From an uncultured Clostridia bacterium (lineage in GTDB: Bacteria > Bacillota > Clostridia > Christensenellales > UBA1242): a DNA stretch of 50,167 nucleotides. Below are positions 1,269-21,702 of the stretch, in pieces. How positions within the stretch are numbered: position 1 is the stretch's first letter; each line of letters starts with the position of its first letter. The notes under the pieces were generated by a model. That model was not told the DNA's origin. It made no database searches and was given only the letters and a program-made list of their open reading frames with translations. Location: the NCBI GenBank assembly GCA_947366545.1, contig CANBAL010000001.1, positions 1 through 50,167 on the forward strand, given 5' to 3'. Both the position numbers and the translations under genes were made by a program.

Positions 1269-4200
1269 TTATTTTACTGCAACACTATCTAAATTGATTG
1301 CACCCTTGCTTACAAGTGTAACTTTATGTTTCCCCTCAGTTAAGGCCTCCGAAATATAGGTGGTCTTTATCTTTTTAGAATTATCACTTAGGTTTACATA
1401 GGCTACCTTTTTGCCATCAACATATATATCATAGCCGCCATAGTCTTTTGACACATATGAATTTAATGCAAATTGTGTACCAGTAAATTCAAGTTCCACC
1501 TTTGCCTTCATTTTACACAAGTAGATGTGACCAAAGTTTGAAAATTGAGATTTTTTCTCCCACAGGCCATAATATTTAATCATGGTGCTATCTGGAGATA
1601 TTAAATTTGCATTCAAAATTGATTTATTATTAGACATCTCTATTTTATTAAGTGCCACATATTTGTTGCTACTTGTTTTTGTAACTACTATTTTATAATA
1701 TCTAAGTCTTTGTTTATCAAAAGTTACAACAACTTTATCATCATTTATAGACAAATCATTAAATACACCTATTTCTTTAAACTTTGAATTTAAGTCCTCG
1801 CTACCATAAAGAGTGAATGAAATCGGTATGGCAGAATTAGTGCCATGAAATTTGGTGTATGCATATAAAGTCAAATAATTTACATAGACTACTTTCCCAA
1901 TATCTACCACCATTTCAAAAGGATTATCTGCACTAATCACATTTTTGGAACACATATTATTTGTGGCATCATCATCAAACAAGTTTTCTATCTTTAGTGT
2001 GTCATCCCATGGACTAAAACCACTATATGAAACAAGTGATTGCTTGGAATAGGTGTCTGTTTGACTTGCTGATACATTGTACTTCCTTTGTATAAAGTAA
2101 TCGGTTTCAAATTTATCTGTTTGAAACTGATAAGAATTTCGATATGATGAAGCGTAGGTTATATTGATAGTAGGCTCTGTAGTATCGCCACCTATGAAAT
2201 TACCATTCTCATCAAACACACCTGTAGGAGGCTCCCAGCGTCCCCAACCAACACCAATAAAACTACTTTGATAGGTGACGAGCAGTACTGCTTTATAATA
2301 CACCCATTGACCTACTTTTAGGTTTTTAAGCATTTCGTCATTAGTATTCCCTGTCAAGAAGTTTGCACTTGAAGTATTATTTGTCATATCAATAGCAAGT
2401 TCATATGTCTTTCCGCCATCAAGAGAAATATATAATGCTGCATACTTTCTACCTCGCAAGGCTATACGGTAATCACCAGCCGTCCCGACATATATCTTTC
2501 CGCGAAGTTCCATGATTGTATTTGAAGTATTGCCATGCAGTGCCCAAATTTCAGAATTAGCATTTTGCACCAGTCTGCCGTCTATATAGTTATTATTATC
2601 TTCATCTGTTTTGCTTTCATAATTTCCATAATTTGCTTCATACGCTTCCACTGGACTTGTAAACATATTTTCTGGGCTATATTTATATGTAGTACGCTGT
2701 ACTATGGTTTTATTAAGTTCATGTGACTGCTCAAACTCAAGAACTAAATCAACATCCTCCACCTCAAACTCGCCATCATCTTTTGTAATTTCAATAGTGG
2801 CTATTATTTTCCCAGAACGCATATGATTTCTATCTGGTACATATGTATAAACGCCCTCAGTATCGGTTGTAACTATCTTTCCGTATTCCGGCTGAGTTAT
2901 GCCCTTCACTTTTACACTGAACCCCTCTGGAGTAGCAATACTGCCATTAATATAGAAGTTTCCATCAAAAGTGTATTTCCTTAAATCTATCGTAAAATCT
3001 TGATTATAAATTATTGTATATGGTTGAGCAGTTTCCACATACTTCTTTACCCCGTCATACATATAACTGCATCCCGTTTGATAAACCGATGCCACCGGTA
3101 CATACATTGGATAGTTTTTCTCTGCCATCGCATTCTGAGCAGGTTCTGACAAGGCTGGCATTCCATTTACTTTAGCCCTAACAAGTGATTCAAAATATCG
3201 CATATCGTTATGGGTAAGGTCTGCCCACTTTGTATAATATCCGTCTACACCTGCCGATCTTGTGGAACTAATAAAGTTCTGTTGCCCAAAAGAATGAAGC
3301 AAGGTGGCGTATATTGACAAAGCGTTGCTCATAGAGCCGCTTACCTGTCTCACCGTCCATGACGGATTTGTGTAGGCATTCCAGCCGCCCAAACCTTCCG
3401 CCACTGAGCCTATATGTCTTGCAGCAGAAATCCGTGTAAACAAACTGTATTCGACAAGATTTAGTGCATTGTTGGTTACCTCGCCACCACCGGGTAGTCC
3501 CCAGCCTTGAAAATTATGATTGTATTCATGCATATTTCCCCATGCACCAGAATTGACAAAACTTTTATAATTTAATGAGCCACCCATCCAACCCGCTGGA
3601 CAATTTACTGAATTTCTGCCTGGGAATGCAACCGCAGCACCAGCAGCAACAAAAGGATCGTACAAAAATACTATTCCACAAGTGGTACCCTTTACCGCTG
3701 TCGACACCAAACTTATTTTCTCCCAAAGAATTGCTGCATCATAAAGTTCTTCATAACTAAAATTTTGAGCATACGCTTTTGGACCCGAATGAAGAACACC
3801 ACTATCCCAAACCATTAAATCAAAATATGGTGCGGAAGAATTTTTATTTCTATTAAATTCTTGTGGCGTTGTATAACCCAAAATAAAATGTGAGTATGCC
3901 ACCCCGCCACTTATTGTTGTGGAAAATGTAGCGTTTGTATGCCCCGGTTGTATGTATATTGGCCCGCCTAAGAATGAACCCACATAAAAAGTGTAATTTC
4001 CATCTTTATCCACTTCCGCTGTGGTGGTGTTTGCATTCACTACCATCATATTTAATATAATTGGCATTCTATTAAAATTTTTTGATTCCCAGATATTATT
4101 CGCTTGGCCATTATAAAGTGCCTGACCGATATAGACAACAAGTCCACCCGTAGCCGCGACATCCTCTTTACTCATTTCAATTTTTATGACTTCACCAGCA

Positions 4201-9912: not shown

Positions 9913-9998
9913 GCCGGTGTGGCGGAATGGCAGACGCACAGGACTTAAAATCCTGAGTTCGCAAGGACGTGTGGGTTCGACTCCCACCACCGGCACCA
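9913..9998 (+). tRNA. tRNA-Leu(UAA), integration target
   Basis: Class II tRNA with acceptor GCCGGTG/CACCGGC, anticodon TAA in loop CTTAAAA, long variable arm, discriminator A and encoded CCA. The 3' 57 bases (from 9942, in the anticodon arm) are repeated exactly at 21613-21669. Integration therefore replaced the tRNA 3' end with an element-borne copy and kept the gene functional. Confidence 0.97.
9942..9998 (+). repeat. attL core, 57-bp direct repeat
   Basis: Perfect match to 21613-21669 from the anticodon stem through CCA. The flanking bases differ on both sides, which defines the limits. Confidence 0.95.
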
Positions 9999-10005
9999 CA
10001 ATTTT

Positions 10006-10144: not shown

Positions 10145-11356
10145 CTAAAATATATAATACAGGTTATTATATATTTTAAGCAGTTTTTCTTTGCTCAGGT
10201 GATAGTCAAGGTCAGTATAATTATCTTTTGTAATTTGGCTTGTTGAGTGTCCCATCTGTCTTGAGATAAACAGTTCAGGATTACCCAAGTAAAAGTTGTT
10301 TGTAGCAAAAGTATGCCTCAAATTGACAATACTTCCGGAAATGTCAAGTTCTTTGAGTATTTCAGCAAAGCGACGATATACAGTTTCATCATCCCACTTC
10401 TTCAATAACTCGATATTATTTTTTATCAGCAAGAAGCCTTGTTTTGTAAGTTTTATATATTTGTAACGTTTCTCACGGTTCCTGCCCTTAAGATTGAGCG
10501 CCTTGAGAATGAGATCTTCTGCGTAAAGGTTTTGTTCTATGTTTTTGAAATCAAGTTCTCGACGTCTTAGGCCGGTGATTAAATAAATCAGGATGATTGG
10601 TTTTATCTCTTCACCCTTCAGGCGTTCCAAGATGCGCACCTGTTGTTCGTAAGTGAATGCCGGCTTGCGTACAAACTTACGAGGCTTCACCACTATACTT
10701 GCAAATGGATTCGCCTTTATCATCCCCTGGTTAAACATTGCTTTAAAGAAGGCCCTTAAATATAAAATAACTTTTTCCTTTGGCCTACCCTCTTCGATTT
10801 TATTTAGTAACTTCAGCAGAACATCCCTACCCACCTTCACAAGTGGAAGATGATGCAGCTCCTCGACCTTGTCGCGCACACGTTCGATATCATCCGCCGT
10901 TTCTTTTACTACAAACGGCTTTTTATTTTGCTCATACCATTTGTCCCAACACTCAATAAATGTTTTTTGACATCTGTGTGCTTTTGTATATTTGCCACCA
11001 GCCACCTTGGCCAAAACTTCTTTGAGTTTGTCCAGGCATTCTTTTTGTGTATGGCCATAAACGGTGTATGTGTGGCCATTAATCATTTTCCTTCCAATAT
11101 AGCGGTGATCCCTATATCGATATTGTACATTTTTCAATTCTATATCTCCTTTTGGTTTTAGTTTCGATATAGAATTAGCGATTTTTGTTTTTTCCTCTTC
11201 TTTTGGTTGTTGTACCTCTACCACATCTCTTTCAAATTCTTGTTGTCTTTGATATTCTCGGCCAGTTTCGATGCTGAGCCATTTTAAAAGCCAATGTGCA
11301 ATCTCTACAATCTTTAGAAGTCCATCATTGGCATCTTGTACAAACTTTGCATCCAT
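10145..11356 (-). CDS. int: Tyrosine recombinase (phage integrase)
   Basis: 403 residues. An unusual helical N-terminus (1-75) is followed by a Lys/Arg-rich arm-binding segment (about 80-120, IGRKMINGHTYTVYGHTQKE), a SAM-like core-binding domain (about 125-220) and a catalytic domain with ITGLRRREL (catalytic Arg, about 265-273), NLRHTFATNN, RQMGHS and the nucleophile Tyr in KDNYTDLD near the C-terminus. The first His of the usual HxLRH box is Val here; the rest of the active site looks intact. It should catalyse integration and excision at the 57-bp tRNA-Leu core. Shine-Dalgarno GGAGGG is 6 bp upstream. The stop lies 147 bp from attL, normal for an integrase. Confidence 0.93.
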   Translation of the reverse strand: MDAKFVQDANDGLLKIVEIAHWLLKWLSIETGREYQRQQEFERDVVEVQQPKEEEKTKIANSISKLKPKGDIELKNVQYRYRDHRYIGRKMINGHTYTVYGHTQKECLDKLKEVLAKVAGGKYTKAHRCQKTFIECWDKWYEQNKKPFVVKETADDIERVRDKVEELHHLPLVKVGRDVLLKLLNKIEEGRPKEKVILYLRAFFKAMFNQGMIKANPFASIVVKPRKFVRKPAFTYEQQVRILERLKGEEIKPIILIYLITGLRRRELDFKNIEQNLYAEDLILKALNLKGRNREKRYKYIKLTKQGFLLIKNNIELLKKWDDETVYRRFAEILKELDISGSIVNLRHTFATNNFYLGNPELFISRQMGHSTSQITKDNYTDLDYHLSKEKLLKIYNNLYYIF

Positions 11357-11412: not shown

Positions 11413-11757
11413 TCAAAACGGCCTTGCTGGCGCAATCTGTGTGTCCGGCAACTTCATGATGATAGAAAGTTGGCCCAAAGCAAATGTGGCTTGTTTTTCA
11501 TCCATTCTTATTGCCAGGTTAATAATTTGTTTTTGTTCCTCACGCAATCCGTCAAGTTGAAGTGTATTGGCAGTTTGGTGGCCTAACAAGTAATCGATAC
11601 TGCAGCCGAAATAGTCGGCTAGTTTTATGAGAGTGTTATATTTCATTTGACTTCTTCCACTTTCATACTCTTGATAACTTCTTAGCGGTATATTAAGCGT
11701 TTGGGATACTTCATACTGTGATTTATTTTCTTGCGTTCTTAGTTTTTTTAAGTTCAT
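11413..11757 (-). CDS. XRE-family (cI-like) repressor
   Basis: 114 residues. N-terminal helix-turn-helix (about 1-60; SQYEVSQTLNIPLRSYQEYESG forms the recognition region), then a short helical C-terminus that could dimerise. The start at 11757 follows AAGGAGG by 6 bp; an upstream ATG at 11775 would overlap that site. It is divergent from the early gene at 11907 across a 149-bp region carrying two 16-bp inverted repeats, so it likely controls the lysogeny switch and probably represses its own promoter. It lies 56 bp upstream of int on the same strand, so both may be co-expressed. Confidence 0.88.
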   Translation of the reverse strand: MNLKKLRTQENKSQYEVSQTLNIPLRSYQEYESGRSQMKYNTLIKLADYFGCSIDYLLGHQTANTLQLDGLREEQKQIINLAIRMDEKQATFALGQLSIIMKLPDTQIAPARPF

Positions 11758-11812
11758 TTTTAACCTCCTTTTCAATAAACTCCACCTAAATTGTATTTTT
11801 TTTATAAAAAAT

Positions 11813-12164: not shown

Positions 12165-12198
12165 AAAACGCCCCAGCGTGGGGCTGGGGCTGTTTTTT
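12163..12198. terminator. Bidirectional terminator
   Basis: Stem GCCCCAGC/GCTGGGGC (12170-12177, 12183-12190) with an A run before and a T run after, between two convergent genes. Confidence 0.9.
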
Positions 12199-12490: not shown

Positions 12491-12605
12491 ACACTTCTCC
12501 TTATGTAAATTTTTCTGGCATAGGCAATCGACATGCCGTTAAGCCCATAAAACAATATACCAAAGAAAACCCATGAAAACCTTTCAAACAACAAAATTCG
12601 ACAAA

Positions 12606-12659
12606 CAGCCCTGACGAGTCTTTGAAAATTAAGACGAAACACCCTACCGGTGTCGGCTG
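12606..12659 (+). ncRNA. Hammerhead ribozyme (type I), self-cleaving
   Basis: Every invariant core element is present in order. Stem I 5' CAGCC (12606-12610); core CUGACGA (12611-12617; consensus CUGANGA); stem II GUCUU/AAGAC (12618-12622, 12631-12635) with an 8-base loop; core GAAA (12636-12639); stem III CACC/GGUG (12640-12643, 12649-12652) with a 5-base loop; UC (12653-12654; consensus UH); stem I 3' GGCUG (12655-12659), a perfect complement of the 5' strand. Stem I is open, so it is type I. Predicted cleavage follows C12654 and would leave a 26-base leader with 5'-OH before the ATG at 12681. Read directly from sequence; activity is inferred. Confidence 0.9.
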
Positions 12660-12680
12660 ACAAGCCTTAAGGAGGTAAAA

Positions 12681-12833
12681 ATGACAAAGGAGCAAATAGA
12701 AAAGTACATAAGCGAAACAATGGCATATTTTCGCTTAATTGACAAAGAAAGCACAGAAGAAGATTTTAAGTGGCAAGAAAACTATATTCGTAAATGCCTG
12801 TATAAAAAATACAACATCGTGGAGGTAGTTTAA
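12681..12833 (+). CDS. 50-residue helical protein, first gene after the ribozyme
   Basis: Starts MTKEQIEKYISET and ends NIVEVV; charged and predicted helical. AAGGAGG lies 5 bp before the ATG, within the 26 bases left after ribozyme cleavage. It overlaps the next gene (taATG), so it is the first cistron of the replication operon. No family recognised. The leader CCTTAAGG is self-complementary around the ribosome-binding site and could modulate translation once cleaved. Confidence 0.75.
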   Translation: MTKEQIEKYISETMAYFRLIDKESTEEDFKWQENYIRKCLYKKYNIVEVV

Positions 12834-13108
12834 TGAAAACTCTCCAATTAGCAAAAATTAACAAATTAATTAAAGCCAGTGAGAAAAAAATGACATCGTC
12901 ATTTTCTATTCCCGCTGGCGATTTTATTTTATTCGCAATAAGGGACCTTGAGACAAAACATATATTAGCCGTAAGTACAATACTTCCCCTTCCATCCGAG
13001 GTTAAAGATTTTGCCCTTGAAAAAGGTCGACATGTGGAAGTTATAGCGCGAGGCATAAAACTTTTTGACACAAGGTGGTATCTACCAAACATGGAGGTGG
13101 CAATATGA
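12833..13108 (+). CDS. Small beta-rich early protein, function unknown
   Basis: 91 residues. After a basic helical start (residues 1-20) it alternates hydrophobic beta strands (DFILFAIRDLETKHILAVST, GRHVEVIARGIKLFD). Coupled at both ends: it starts at taATG and ends ATGA into the replication gene. In filamentous phages a gene of this size next to the replication gene often encodes a single-strand DNA-binding protein, but I see no motif proving that here. Confidence 0.7.
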   Translation: MKTLQLAKINKLIKASEKKMTSSFSIPAGDFILFAIRDLETKHILAVSTILPLPSEVKDFALEKGRHVEVIARGIKLFDTRWYLPNMEVAI

Positions 13109-13836
13109 GTTACTGGGCATCCTACCCTAAAAAAGTGCTGCACTTAAAAAGTCTCACTGACGGCGAACTAAGACTATGGCTACTAATTAGTGACAACTTA
13201 ACGCCGGCCGGCTATTGCAAACTCACAAATGCGGAAATCTCGAAGGCGCTTAACAATTTATCACAACAAACTATCTCCGCGCGCATTTCATCCCTGGTAA
13301 AAAAGAAGTTCATAAACATTGTTCAAAACAATCACAAGCATGAGCGCTGGATGTATGTGCATATTCCAAAAGAGCAGGAACTGTACGCAGAAGAAAAACC
13401 AACTGATGAAAAACTAAGCGCACAAATGCTCGCCATACAAGAAGCATTTAAAACGGCCGTCATTTTTGGCAGCGCTGAGCCTGACTTGCTCCTGGCACGC
13501 ATCAAGGAATCACCAGTGCTTAATGATATCAAAGACAACTCGATTCAATATGCACTCACACTTGACCATGTAAAATTTCTTGCTGAGTTCATGTACAACT
13601 ACCCTCATAAAGCGATTGACTGTCAAGTGGCATCTTACACCGGACTTGATTATGACATGTTACTAAATGAGATTAAAAATAGCGACCTATTAGTTAAAGA
13701 CAATTTATCACTCAAATGGTGCATAGAGCATTCAAGCGAAATCCTAGTTGGAAAATATCGCAGGTTAGAAGAAAAACAGCAAAATGAAGAAAGTGCAGTA
13801 CAACGCGCAATAAGAAGGCTGGGAGGTGTTGAATGA
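13105..13836 (+). CDS. Winged-helix replication-initiator-like protein
   Basis: 243 residues from ATG 13105, chosen because GGAGGTGG lies just upstream and the start overlaps the previous stop (ATGA); a 10-residue extension to 13075 is unlikely. Residues about 10-90 form a winged helix (LTDGELRLWLLISDNLTPAGYC, then NAEISKALNNLSQQTISARISSLVKKKFI), like N-terminal domains of phage and plasmid replication proteins of the DnaD/RepA type. The C-terminal half is helical and Lys/Arg-rich. No HUH, Rep_trans or primase motif is present. Followed by a helicase-loader-like gene, it likely binds the origin. Confidence 0.7.
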   Translation: MSYWASYPKKVLHLKSLTDGELRLWLLISDNLTPAGYCKLTNAEISKALNNLSQQTISARISSLVKKKFINIVQNNHKHERWMYVHIPKEQELYAEEKPTDEKLSAQMLAIQEAFKTAVIFGSAEPDLLLARIKESPVLNDIKDNSIQYALTLDHVKFLAEFMYNYPHKAIDCQVASYTGLDYDMLLNEIKNSDLLVKDNLSLKWCIEHSSEILVGKYRRLEEKQQNEESAVQRAIRRLGGVE

Positions 13837-16890: not shown

Positions 16891-18426
16891 GTGAAAAAAT
16901 TTTTAATTGGGTTATTAATTTGTGCTTTTCTTGCAAGTTCAGGTTGTGCTATATATTATGGCATTCAGTATAACAATATAGATCAAAATCAAGTTACTGA
17001 TAATTCAGGACTTGTTCAAACAGTTAATGAACTTCGTGAGACTATAAAGAAAATAACACAGGAAAAAGAAGGCTTATCTGTTGAAGTTGCAAATTTGCAA
17101 AAAGATAAAGCCGGTCTTGAGGCTAAACAAGATGTGGATGCTCAATTAATTGCGAGTCTTCAGGCTGATAAGGCATCCTTAATTCAAGCAAAGGCTCAGG
17201 TAGATAGTAATCTTGCTACTGCGCAAGAAACAATTAATTCACTTAATGCACAAATTGCTGAAAAAGATAATGCTATAACTGCACTTCAAGCGCAATATGA
17301 TGCACGTGGTGAAGAGATTAATAATTTAAACTCTCAAATACTTAGTTTGCAAAATGAGATTACAAGATTGAATGGACTACTTGCATCTTATGAATATCTT
17401 GCAAATGAGACATTTGAGGTTAATTTCTACAATGGGGAAACTTTAGTTACAACTAAGGCGGTTAGAAATAACACGAGTTTAACCGAAAGTCAAGTTCCAA
17501 CTTTAACTGATGAAAAAGATATTTTTCTTGGTTGGACAAAAACTCAAAATGGTACTGAATTGGTAACAGTTGCTAATGAAGTTGTTACTGCAGATATTAC
17601 ATATTATGCAGTATGGACACGCAGGGCTGAAGTTAAATTTGTTGATGGTGACAATGTTATAGATACTTCTTTGAAAGTGAAGGGAACTAATGTTGTTGCA
17701 CCTGCTAACCCTTCTAAAGCCGGCTTTGAGTTTCTTGGTTGGGCAAAGTCACCAAATGGTGAAATAGTTCTAGTTACTGAAGAATTGGTTACAGAAGATG
17801 TAACTTATTATGCAGTATGGACTGAAAAGTATGTTGTTACATATGTAGACGGAACTACAACGCTTAGTACAGAGGAAGTTGTTGCCGGCAATAAGGCTAA
17901 TGTTCCTTCAGCACCTACAAAGTCTGGTTGGACTTTTGATGGTTGGTATAGGAATGGTGTTAAGATTACTACTTCTAATTTCAAGCCTACCGCTGATACA
18001 ACTCTTAAGGCACAATATTATAAGTGGAATTCACTTAATATGTCTCCTTCTTATGGTGCAAGTATAAAAGATTTGTCTACTTACACTATTAATGGCTTAA
18101 AGGCCGGTGATAAGGTTAGGGCTACATTTACAGTAGGTGTTAGTTATTATACTGATGAGGATGGTAACTGGGCTTCTTATACATATACCACTAATAATCA
18201 ATTTGCATATGGTGGTACAGCAAAACATATTACAGAAACTTCATTTTATGCCAGTGGGCCAGTTTATAGCGGTGATTTTAGTGTATCTATATCTTTTTCA
18301 TGTAAAAGTGCTAATACATTAAATATTTCACAAAGTGCTAGTGTTACTAATCCTGATAATGATATAAATATTTCTTCTTTATATCTTTATGGCGTTGAAG
18401 TTCGTCAAAACTTGTATACATTGTAG
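16891..18426 (+). CDS. Lipoprotein with coiled coil and three InlB-type repeats, candidate adsorption protein
   Basis: 511 residues from a GTG start (AAAGGAG 5-6 bp upstream). Signal peptide with lipobox SSGC (Cys about 19); long coiled coil (about 45-170, repeated QADKASL/NSLNAQIAEKD-type heptads); three InlB B-repeats (about 175-245, 246-313, 314-376), each ending Y-Y-A-V-W or similar and containing F.GW; then a unique beta-rich C-terminal domain (about 377-511). The stalk, repeat and tip layout is that of a surface adhesin. Inside a phage-like element it would suit a receptor-binding protein, or a lysogenic-conversion surface protein. No LPxTG or C-terminal membrane anchor is visible. Confidence 0.7.
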   Translation: MKKFLIGLLICAFLASSGCAIYYGIQYNNIDQNQVTDNSGLVQTVNELRETIKKITQEKEGLSVEVANLQKDKAGLEAKQDVDAQLIASLQADKASLIQAKAQVDSNLATAQETINSLNAQIAEKDNAITALQAQYDARGEEINNLNSQILSLQNEITRLNGLLASYEYLANETFEVNFYNGETLVTTKAVRNNTSLTESQVPTLTDEKDIFLGWTKTQNGTELVTVANEVVTADITYYAVWTRRAEVKFVDGDNVIDTSLKVKGTNVVAPANPSKAGFEFLGWAKSPNGEIVLVTEELVTEDVTYYAVWTEKYVVTYVDGTTTLSTEEVVAGNKANVPSAPTKSGWTFDGWYRNGVKITTSNFKPTADTTLKAQYYKWNSLNMSPSYGASIKDLSTYTINGLKAGDKVRATFTVGVSYYTDEDGNWASYTYTTNNQFAYGGTAKHITETSFYASGPVYSGDFSVSISFSCKSANTLNISQSASVTNPDNDINISSLYLYGVEVRQNLYTL

Positions 18427-19148: not shown

Positions 19149-19157
19149 GCGGTGCGG

Positions 19158-20054
19158 ATGAAGACTTATGAGAATTTGCAACAAATTTTTGCGGATGAAC
19201 TATTTAATCATAGTGAAATCTTAGTTTTTTGGGGCAAACGCCGGAAAGGTAAGAGTTCACTTAAGGCACGATTTGAAGTTGACTGGATGCAACCGCGCAA
19301 TGCAAAAGCAGATGTTCGAGAATGTGCAGCCATTTGTGAACAAATAAATCAAACCGGCCTTAATCTTCATCCCCCTAAGGACCACTTAGTATTTGTAAAT
19401 ACATACGCAGAAAGTATAGGCCCTCACCTCAAGAAGACAAAGGCATATACTTTCAAAGACATTGAGTTTGGCCTGCCAAATGCAACGCATCCAACAGGCC
19501 TGCTCGTGCCTATTGGTAAATATTCATTCGATGAGTCGCAAGACCTGTTTGACAGTCATATGGGACAGTTGGCAACCTTTGTATCGAAGGGGGTTGAACT
19601 CTCCGGCCAAATTGGCCTAACACTTATGATTGCAGTACAACGGCCAAAGCGCGTGCCTCAAGATATTAGAGACCTTGCAACATTTATTGAGTGTATTTCT
19701 TTTAAAGAGATTAGAAACAAATATGGCCGTATTGTACGCGACGAATGGGTTTGCAATATCATTTATGATAATGCGAATCTAGAGGCTTATCTTGGCTCTC
19801 GAGATAAGAAGTATGTAGACAAGACGGTGAAGTTCGTTTTTAACGGCAATATACGCAGGTGCTACAATCATAGATATTTTGCTTTGATGTTTTATAAGCG
19901 CTACGAGAAAACGGCTGTAGAAACAGATTTTACACTCGAGCGTTGCAGTGACGTGGAGTATACACCTAATGGCGCTAAAAAATACTTTGATAATCACTCG
20001 ATAGAGATTCCAGAAACTTATCGAGGAAAGAAGAAAAAGGAGACAAAGTCATGA
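19158..20054 (+). CDS. Zot/FtsK-HerA-like morphogenesis or packaging ATPase
   Basis: 298 residues. Walker A GKRRKGKS (26-33), Walker B-like segment ending in D125-E126 (YSFDESQDLF), and a sensor-like AVQRPKRVPQDIRDLA (about 159-174) in which a glutamine follows a strand, the arrangement seen in Zot/pI proteins and other FtsK/HerA ATPases. Zot/pI drives filamentous-phage assembly at the membrane. Unlike classic pI, no membrane segment is evident, so it may need a partner, or it may be a packaging ATPase of another tailless virus group. ATG 19158 is preferred over GTG 19152 because of the AGGCGG spacing. It overlaps the next gene by ATGA. Confidence 0.65.
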   Translation: MKTYENLQQIFADELFNHSEILVFWGKRRKGKSSLKARFEVDWMQPRNAKADVRECAAICEQINQTGLNLHPPKDHLVFVNTYAESIGPHLKKTKAYTFKDIEFGLPNATHPTGLLVPIGKYSFDESQDLFDSHMGQLATFVSKGVELSGQIGLTLMIAVQRPKRVPQDIRDLATFIECISFKEIRNKYGRIVRDEWVCNIIYDNANLEAYLGSRDKKYVDKTVKFVFNGNIRRCYNHRYFALMFYKRYEKTAVETDFTLERCSDVEYTPNGAKKYFDNHSIEIPETYRGKKKKETKS

Positions 20055-21612: not shown

Positions 21613-21669
21613 GACTTAAAATCCTGAGTTCGCAAGGACGTGTGGGTTCGACTCCCACCACCGGCACCA
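21613..21669 (+). repeat. attR core, 57-bp direct repeat (tRNA-Leu 3' end)
   Basis: Perfect copy of the 3' part of tRNA-Leu(UAA) from the anticodon stem to CCA. It has no 5' half, so it is not a gene. The original tRNA terminator follows at 21671. Confidence 0.95.
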
Positions 21670-21670
21670 A

Positions 21671-21702
21671 AAAAAGAAGTGCAAAATCGCACTTCTTTTT
21701 TT
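21671..21702 (+). terminator. Original tRNA-Leu terminator, displaced by integration
   Basis: Stem AAAAAGAAGTGC/GCACTTCTTTTT with an AAAATC loop. The same core hairpin recurs at 22560-22586. Confidence 0.85.

Follow-up and report, generated by a model that had tools for sequence, protein, structure and literature searches.

A type I hammerhead ribozyme with a predicted re-pairing hairpin in the replication-operon leader of an inovirus-like prophage

The window analysed here, a stretch of 50,167 nucleotides from an uncultured Clostridia bacterium, contains a prophage of 11.67 kb bounded by a 60-nt repeat of the end of a tRNA-Leu, the copies of which are 98% identical at a spacing of 11671 (Table 1). 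An integrase and a divergent repressor are encoded on the reverse strand; on the forward strand there follow a complete type I hammerhead, recognised by reading the sequence at 12606-12659, a short first ORF, a DnaD-like gene and a gene for a Zot-family protein. As a preceding sequence-only reading of this DNA had proposed, the hammerhead lies in the leader of the prophage replication operon, with the repressor and the DnaD-like gene on its two sides. The 50-aa product of the first ORF has a counterpart with 94% identity over 48 aa in one relative (G137); the remaining contigs searched gave none at E 1e-3. A promoter search before the ribozyme gave one weak match against 1.6 expected, none convincing. 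Between the repressor side and the ribozyme, at 12170-12190, there is also a strong two-way terminator-like hairpin (8 bp, 7 of them G-C).

Table 1. Coordinates of the prophage features and of the elements of the ribozyme leader
Feature	Position	Strand	Basis
attL: 60-nt direct repeat, running from inside tRNA-Leu (9913-9998, ARAGORN) to just beyond it	9942-10001	+	repeat match
Tyrosine integrase	10145-11356	-	phrog_1 integrase E 6e-24; PF00589 E 1.4e-5, below its cut-off
Cro/C1-type HTH repressor, divergent	11413-11775	-	PF01381 E 8.2e-12; homologue on 7/9 motif-bearing relative contigs
Conserved A-A directly 5' of stem I	12604-12605	+	116 dereplicated subfamily sites
Stem I	12606-12610 CAGCC / 12655-12659 GGCTG	+	sequence
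Core CTGACGA	12611-12617	+	sequence
Stem II	12618-12622 GTCTT / 12631-12635 AAGAC	+	sequence
Stem II loop TGAAAATT, subfamily signature	12623-12630	+	sequence and dereplicated site set
Core GAAA	12636-12639	+	sequence
Stem III, loop CTACC	12640-12643 CACC / 12649-12652 GGTG	+	sequence
T12653, C12654; cleavage expected after C12654	12653-12654	+	sequence
Predicted post-cleavage 5'-terminal hairpin GGCU(GACA)AGCC, exclusive with stem I	12655-12666	+	predicted fold
Shine-Dalgarno AAGGAGG	12669-12675	+	sequence
First ORF of the operon, 50 aa	12681-12833	+	translation
DnaD-like/replication initiation protein	13075-13836	+	phrog_186 E 1.7e-5, phrog_19658 E 2.1e-5
Zot-family (filamentous-phage assembly ATPase type) protein	19152-20054	+	43-47% identity to six relatives
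attR	21613-21672	+	98% identical to attL

The Zot-like protein of the window has no Pfam or PHROG match by itself; PF05707 (Zot family) is matched by 8 of the 15 aligned members of its set (A1), and it is via these members, rather than the window protein alone, that a Zot/pI-type assembly ATPase can be assigned to the element. The best PDB match of the corresponding profile is 2r2a (E 4.2e-7), titled 'Uncharacterized protein'. The PF05707 matches bear out the earlier description of the element as filamentous-phage-like, and a Zot-family ATPase and a small integrated genome are the features it shares with inoviruses, e.g., those of gut Clostridia; because no coat gene was recognised in the prophage, 'inovirus-like' is the right strength for this designation. 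The prophage further encodes a 511-aa protein (16891-18426), perhaps a virion or adhesion protein; besides coiled-coil matches, it contains three Listeria-Bacteroides repeats (PF09479, E 1.2e-23).

Sequence, fold and descriptor agree on the hammerhead: the core (CUGANGA, GAAA and UH) occurs in order with stems I-III, and its 5' and 3' ends meet in stem I, 12606-12610 pairing with 12655-12659, which makes it type I. Folded in isolation, the 54-mer adopts exactly the hammerhead structure at -15.2 kcal/mol (z -2.84; 4 of 200 shuffles equally good), in keeping with the sequence-only reading, which had listed all the conserved nucleotides and stems of 5, 5 and 4 bp. Its spacings are likewise exact: with the first ATG at 12681, the motif ends 21 nt and the cleavage site 26 nt before the start codon. 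When 116 nt are folded, stem I is missing from the minimum-energy structure, which has a downstream hairpin instead. A strict descriptor (stems of 5, 5 and 4, Watson-Crick only) matches the window once on the forward strand and never on the reverse. The same descriptor found nothing in 260 Mb of random sequence (first-order Markov with the window's dinucleotides, one strand), as did a relaxed version with shorter stems and G-U permitted on the same sequence, upholding the earlier judgement that a chance match is very unlikely. The presence of a hammerhead at 12606-12659 is hence confirmed as an observation; its catalysis is predicted.

Standard models do not recover this hammerhead. At gathering thresholds, Rfam returns tRNAs only in the window; under lax thresholds the best hammerhead score is 18.7 bits for RF00008 (gathering 48.5), followed by RAGATH-1 (RF03152), which aligns over its full model length, core and stems included, but at 18.4 bits against a gathering value of 56.3, and so does not admit the site as a member. 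A search of the source genome with RF00163 gave no match, but its positive controls matched nowhere either. Across 16 site-bearing loci, Rfam called a single hammerhead at gathering (in L125). Its models thus seem to miss sites of the window's subfamily, which is therefore probably under-annotated. The covariance search that the sequence-only reading had suggested accordingly failed with Rfam at gathering, but a custom model (R1), from which the known sites of the genus had been left out, recovered 12602-12663 at 71.9 bits (E 4.6e-19), the next match in the window having an E of 6. R1 was built from 51 sites of IMG/VR phages and other genomes, drawn from 60 of 68 eligible sequences, with nine of the 60 omitted without a stated rule, and its IMG/VR contigs could include a phage of the window's genus.

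The stems of this hammerhead also covary among related sites. In the 51 sequences of R1, about 99.6-99.7% of cells in stems I and III are paired, a count that leans toward structure because the sites were chosen for having stems; the covariation score is 0.594 against 0.108 for shuffled alignments, and 168 cells are changed on both sides where 40.7 are expected. A less selected figure comes from 287 core sites with enough flank, 225 of which have both further stems, compared with 2.2 for shuffled flanks and 15.1 for swapped upstream flanks. Within the genus, three of the 10 sites close stem I with an outer C-G pair and seven with U-A, and stem III is of the CACC/GGUG kind in eight and CCC/GGG in two, with a G-U pair in G032 and a single C.A mismatch in G060 as the exceptions. 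Pairing is thus kept through compensatory change in both the 51 stem-selected and the 10 genus sites, and the relatives, but for the mismatch in G060, give the outcome that the sequence-only reading had named as a check. An extended stem I with an internal loop was considered for the U-A subgroup by eye; since the C-G subgroup, to which the window belongs, does not form it, we make no claim for it.

A scan of 101 genomes, the source genome included, showed the core pattern in 5 (reversed control 0), and within the order it was present in 6 of 396 genomes (7 sites). Across the genus, 9 of 112 genomes, again counting the source, carry 10 hammerhead sites; the count is nine and not 11 because two weak covariance matches were rejected, one lacking GAAA (G057) and the other lacking CUGA and looking like coding sequence by eye (G119). 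On 8 of the 9 motif-bearing relative contigs the ribozyme is followed by a DnaD-like homologue, and repressor and DnaD homologues occupy both sides on six (G032, G055, G107, G137, G148 and G054), while the two G104 contigs and G060 have one flank missing near a contig end. The two G104 hammerheads, found on separate contigs, may be one element. In G032, G055, G104, G107 and the window, a Zot gene lies further along the contig that holds the ribozyme, on the same strand. Nevertheless, Zot elements do not always carry the ribozyme: 4 of 27 genomes with a Zot-like match have the core pattern, and G035 and G024, which are close Zot relatives, do not have it. A distant Zot element from a goat colon Clostridia (L186) has a hammerhead with quite different stems at 709, ~5 kb before the Zot gene.

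More widely, the core is shared by at least 120 stretches of IMG/VR and by 56 from the genome collection, whose record titles include Lachnospiraceae, Anaeroplasma, Gastranaerophilales, Elusimicrobia and Bacteroidales. The phage collection holds eight records with similar DNA, including crAss-like and Agathobaculum phages; the plasmid collection gave no match to the hammerhead. A search of viral contigs by protein patterns for Zot relatives matched eight stretches, none of which encodes one. For statistics, we assembled a first set, in which 299 unique core sites yielded 233 with all stems and 226 with enough flank, dereplicated to 200 sites at 60% and 188 at 65%, and a held-out set with other stem II sequences, in which 264 core candidates yielded 170 complete sites and, after dereplication also against the first set, 122. 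Both are samples of the collections (at least 120 matches per scan) rather than full inventories. The stem II loop signature of the subfamily, TTTGNNAATT, is present in 116 of the 188 sites, a share that is not a natural frequency because part of the sample was fetched with the signature itself. In these 116 sites, A stands at CTGA-7 in 97% and A or G at CTGA-6 in 98%, the window having A at both; this A-R pair before stem I possibly touches the stem II loop in a tertiary contact. Unannotated hammerheads of the same subfamily also occur in two crAss-like phage records (L390 and L392), the former with a possible hairpin GGATTA-agcg-TAATCC after it. In two Agathobaculum phages with a named cultured host (AB434P2 and AB434P3; L388 and L389), the hammerhead is followed by the hairpin GGGA-UUAU-UCCC, a Shine-Dalgarno and a gene; its core is at 1501 in both records and the gene starts at 1587.

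The leader of the window element has a further property, which concerns the strand freed by cleavage. The message is predicted to start as GGCUGACAAGCCUUAAGGAGG, and the GGCU of the freed 3' strand of stem I can pair with a downstream AGCC only if stem I is given up. The resulting hairpin would stand directly before the Shine-Dalgarno, the first 16 nt folding at -5.9 kcal/mol. All 10 copies of the genus can form such a hairpin (3 bp in four, 4 bp in five and 5 bp in one) and are therewith predicted to have a hairpin at the new 5' end followed by a ribosome-binding site. The sequence-only reading had pointed to a self-complementary word, CCTTAAGG, in this leader; the word is indeed there, but it is not a conserved feature: L182 (from G137) carries CCTTAAAGG, and the sites of the other eight relatives are without it. 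It is the GGC...GCC hairpin that is possible in all 10 sites.

Within the genus GGC and GCC are fixed, and the hairpin shows no covariation of its own; because of this invariance, it was assessed on sites with differing stem I, counting Watson-Crick helices of at least 4 bp that start at nucleotide 1 or 2 after cleavage. Such hairpins are found at 56 of 200 sites, where swapping the downstream parts among the sites gives 19.0 +/- 4.0, and at 52 of 188 against 18.9 +/- 3.5 when each site's own downstream letters are shuffled. Over the 188 sites the counts fall from 36 (11.8 expected) at offset 0 and 27 (9.9) at offset 1 to 15 (14.1) at offset 3; the excess is thus anchored at the cleavage site and reaches background by offset 3. 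A second, unexplained rise of 4-bp helices appears at offsets 13-15 (21-24 against about 12); the held-out profile spans offsets up to 11. With the genus excluded and one site taken per locus, the count is 45 of 172 (15.7 +/- 3.4 expected), made up of 18 of 107 sites with a TTTG loop (5.1) and 27 of 65 others (11.1).

The held-out sites point in the same direction, clearly more weakly, with 31 of 122 against 19.7 +/- 3.5 and 20.4 +/- 3.9; among 300 shuffles, some equal or exceed the observed 31 (maximum 33). A control with the first six letters reversed gave 29 of 188, which is above the shuffles, so that the composition of these letters may account for some of the excess. In this light, and given that 136 of the 188 hammerheads are without a 4-bp hairpin, only a minority of phage hammerheads would have the predicted hairpin, while every member of the window element's family can form it. 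Cleavage is predicted to raise the openness of the Shine-Dalgarno in eight of the 10 genus copies (in the window from 0.51 to 0.94), the exceptions being G032 (0.54 to 0.51) and G107 (0.03 to 0.02). In the uncleaved RNA, the hairpin and the active fold are about isoenergetic (-2.5 to +0.7 kcal/mol); hence, the hairpin could also slow cleavage.

A Shine-Dalgarno, start codon and open frame follow the hammerhead at 133 of the 188 sites, compared with 42.4 on shuffling, with a median distance from cleavage to start of 38 nt (26 nt in the window); the held-out set gives 88 of 122 against 24.2 expected and a median of 32 nt. An exception is the crAss-like L390, in which more than 800 nt separate the hammerhead from the gene annotated next. 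A further phage locus is L331, a 14 kb part of a 131 kb contig (IMG/VR 3300042922_000923), which between 2917 and 8574 encodes two hammerheads and eight pistol ribozymes, all on one strand, each shortly 5' of an ORF and with similar leaders around gaatttaatttaaaaggaga. Both hammerheads have the hairpin (GCTA-gtaa-TAGC and GCTA-gaaga-TAGC). By eye, the pistol at 4092 could form GGTA-gtaa-TACC. L331 is possibly a per-gene processing system, and from the equivalent positions of two unrelated ribozyme classes we argue for a common job, namely the cutting of an operon transcript into one-gene messages.

Two known systems are instructive here. The nearest case of a hammerhead in a viral early-operon leader is HHphage of the haloviruses HF1 and HF2, a core variant located 13 nt before the start codon of a helicase gene, with a mapped transcript 5' end within three nucleotides of the cleavage site (PMC3088659, Perreault et al. 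2011). With this and the other bacterial and phage hammerheads, the window shares the catalytic core, the three stems, the prophage setting and the early-operon leader; it differs from HHphage in belonging to a small Zot-encoding inovirus-like prophage rather than a tailed halovirus, in its canonical as against variant core, in its stem II loop (TTTGNNAATT) and the A-R that precedes stem I, and in the predicted re-pairing hairpin. The nearest architecture is that of the engineered RiboJ, which by analogy has the same order of a leader hammerhead, a hairpin directly downstream and then the ribosome-binding site (PMC8794103, PMC6206723). In E. coli, RiboJ led to about twofold more transcript and two- to tenfold more protein, for which its authors suggest stability via the terminal hairpin (PMC6206723). 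Whereas RiboJ adds a 23-nt hairpin after the ribozyme, the predicted hairpin of the window borrows the freed strand of stem I and excludes that stem. The word 'ribozyme' does not occur in the searched main text of two inovirus papers (PMC6813254, PMC10061712), and among the open-access papers searched we found no report joining 'hammerhead ribozyme' and 'inovirus'. To this extent the novelty anticipated by the sequence-only reading stands, but a hammerhead in a viral early-operon leader has the precedent of HHphage. Among the open-access matches listed, no title or opening of an abstract describes a natural post-cleavage hairpin, an absence that carries little weight. The ribozyme itself is of a known class; what is new is a leader in which the freed strand of stem I can re-pair, in a three-strand arrangement.

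The motif, its covariation, its placement and the competing hairpin can all be read from the sequence; from them we infer cleavage, formation of the hairpin in the cell, and effects on stability and translation. We consider it probable that this hammerhead processes the leader of the replication operon as a natural analogue of RiboJ, yielding a leader with a 5'-OH hairpin. Briefly, the early transcript would start upstream of the ribozyme, which would fold on leaving the polymerase and cut after C12654. The freed GGCU would then pair with the nearby downstream AGCC, and the hairpin so formed at the 5'-OH end would remove the pairing of stem I, help to shed the 5' fragment and hinder re-ligation. 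In Firmicutes, a 5'-OH and a 5' hairpin guard mRNA against 5'-end decay (RNase J, RppH). The mRNA would accordingly begin with a hairpin expected to resist such decay, with an open Shine-Dalgarno next, the net effect being a defined, stable and well-translated 26-nt leader, whichever the promoter. Because the two folds are about equally stable before cleavage, timing may decide between them; a cut followed by re-pairing is favoured, as stem I, the core and the cleavage site exit the polymerase before AGCC.

The near-equality of these folds also lends itself to a different reading, to which we give a distinctly lower probability: a regulatory switch in which AGCC competes with stem I, so that cleavage depends on how fast transcription proceeds, on Mg2+, on a protein or on translation. 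Uncleaved RNA would then keep the Shine-Dalgarno partly closed, and the ribozyme would gate the expression of the replication genes. The lower openness predicted before cleavage in eight of 10 copies is consistent with this, as is a 3-bp helix in the window's alternative fold between CCU at the base of stem I and AGG in the Shine-Dalgarno region. However, this anti-Shine-Dalgarno pairing amounts to 3 bp, no ligand domain or third conserved element was seen, and the emergence of stem I and the core before AGCC would favour cleavage first. Slightly less likely still is that cleavage simply removes upstream RNA or separates messages and that the hairpin has no role in the window element. The majority of sites lacking a 4-bp hairpin and the pistol ribozymes occupying the same place in L331 agree with such plain processing, whereas the hairpin being possible in every genus copy, and elsewhere enriched and anchored at the cleavage site, speaks for a role. 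The sequence-only reading had further raised the processing of genome-length transcripts of a circular form. The att repeats imply that the prophage would excise as a circle, the transcripts of which might be cut to unit length, or even an RNA-circle replicon be maintained, but we regard this as very improbable: the window has a single hammerhead copy, the ten prophage proteins scanned include no RNA-replication gene, and most related ribozymes in other phages stand just before single genes. That the motif is an inactive relic or a chance resemblance, as its failure to reach the Rfam gathering thresholds might suggest, is scarcely credible in view of the zero count in random sequence, the covariation, the R1 match, the stem enrichment and the pairing kept in the genus. 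Taken as a whole, the earlier interpretation is partly supported.

Returning to the preferred reading of a processed, hairpin-bearing leader, its extension to other phages is more tentative, and we hold it to be somewhat less than an even proposition. A ribozyme, hammerhead or interchangeably pistol, might constitute a general leader cassette placed before individual genes in unrelated phages, where it would convert polycistronic RNA into one-gene messages with standard leaders. The hammerhead versions would re-fold the cleaved strand as a 5'-OH hairpin cap, a three-strand switch serving both product release and message protection. According to a 2023 paper, it was still unknown what biological purpose lies behind the clustering of bacterial hammerhead and twister ribozymes near certain genes, those of Mu-like phages above all (PMC10085705).

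Against this backdrop, the placement and hairpin statistics frame a definite question, namely whether cleavage and the re-pairing hairpin together set the half-life and translation of the mRNA. If they do, nature would have reached the same architecture as RiboJ, a part in wide use, and the hammerhead leaders of phages would provide a set of natural leader parts. The general cassette, if true, would answer what many phage hammerheads are for.
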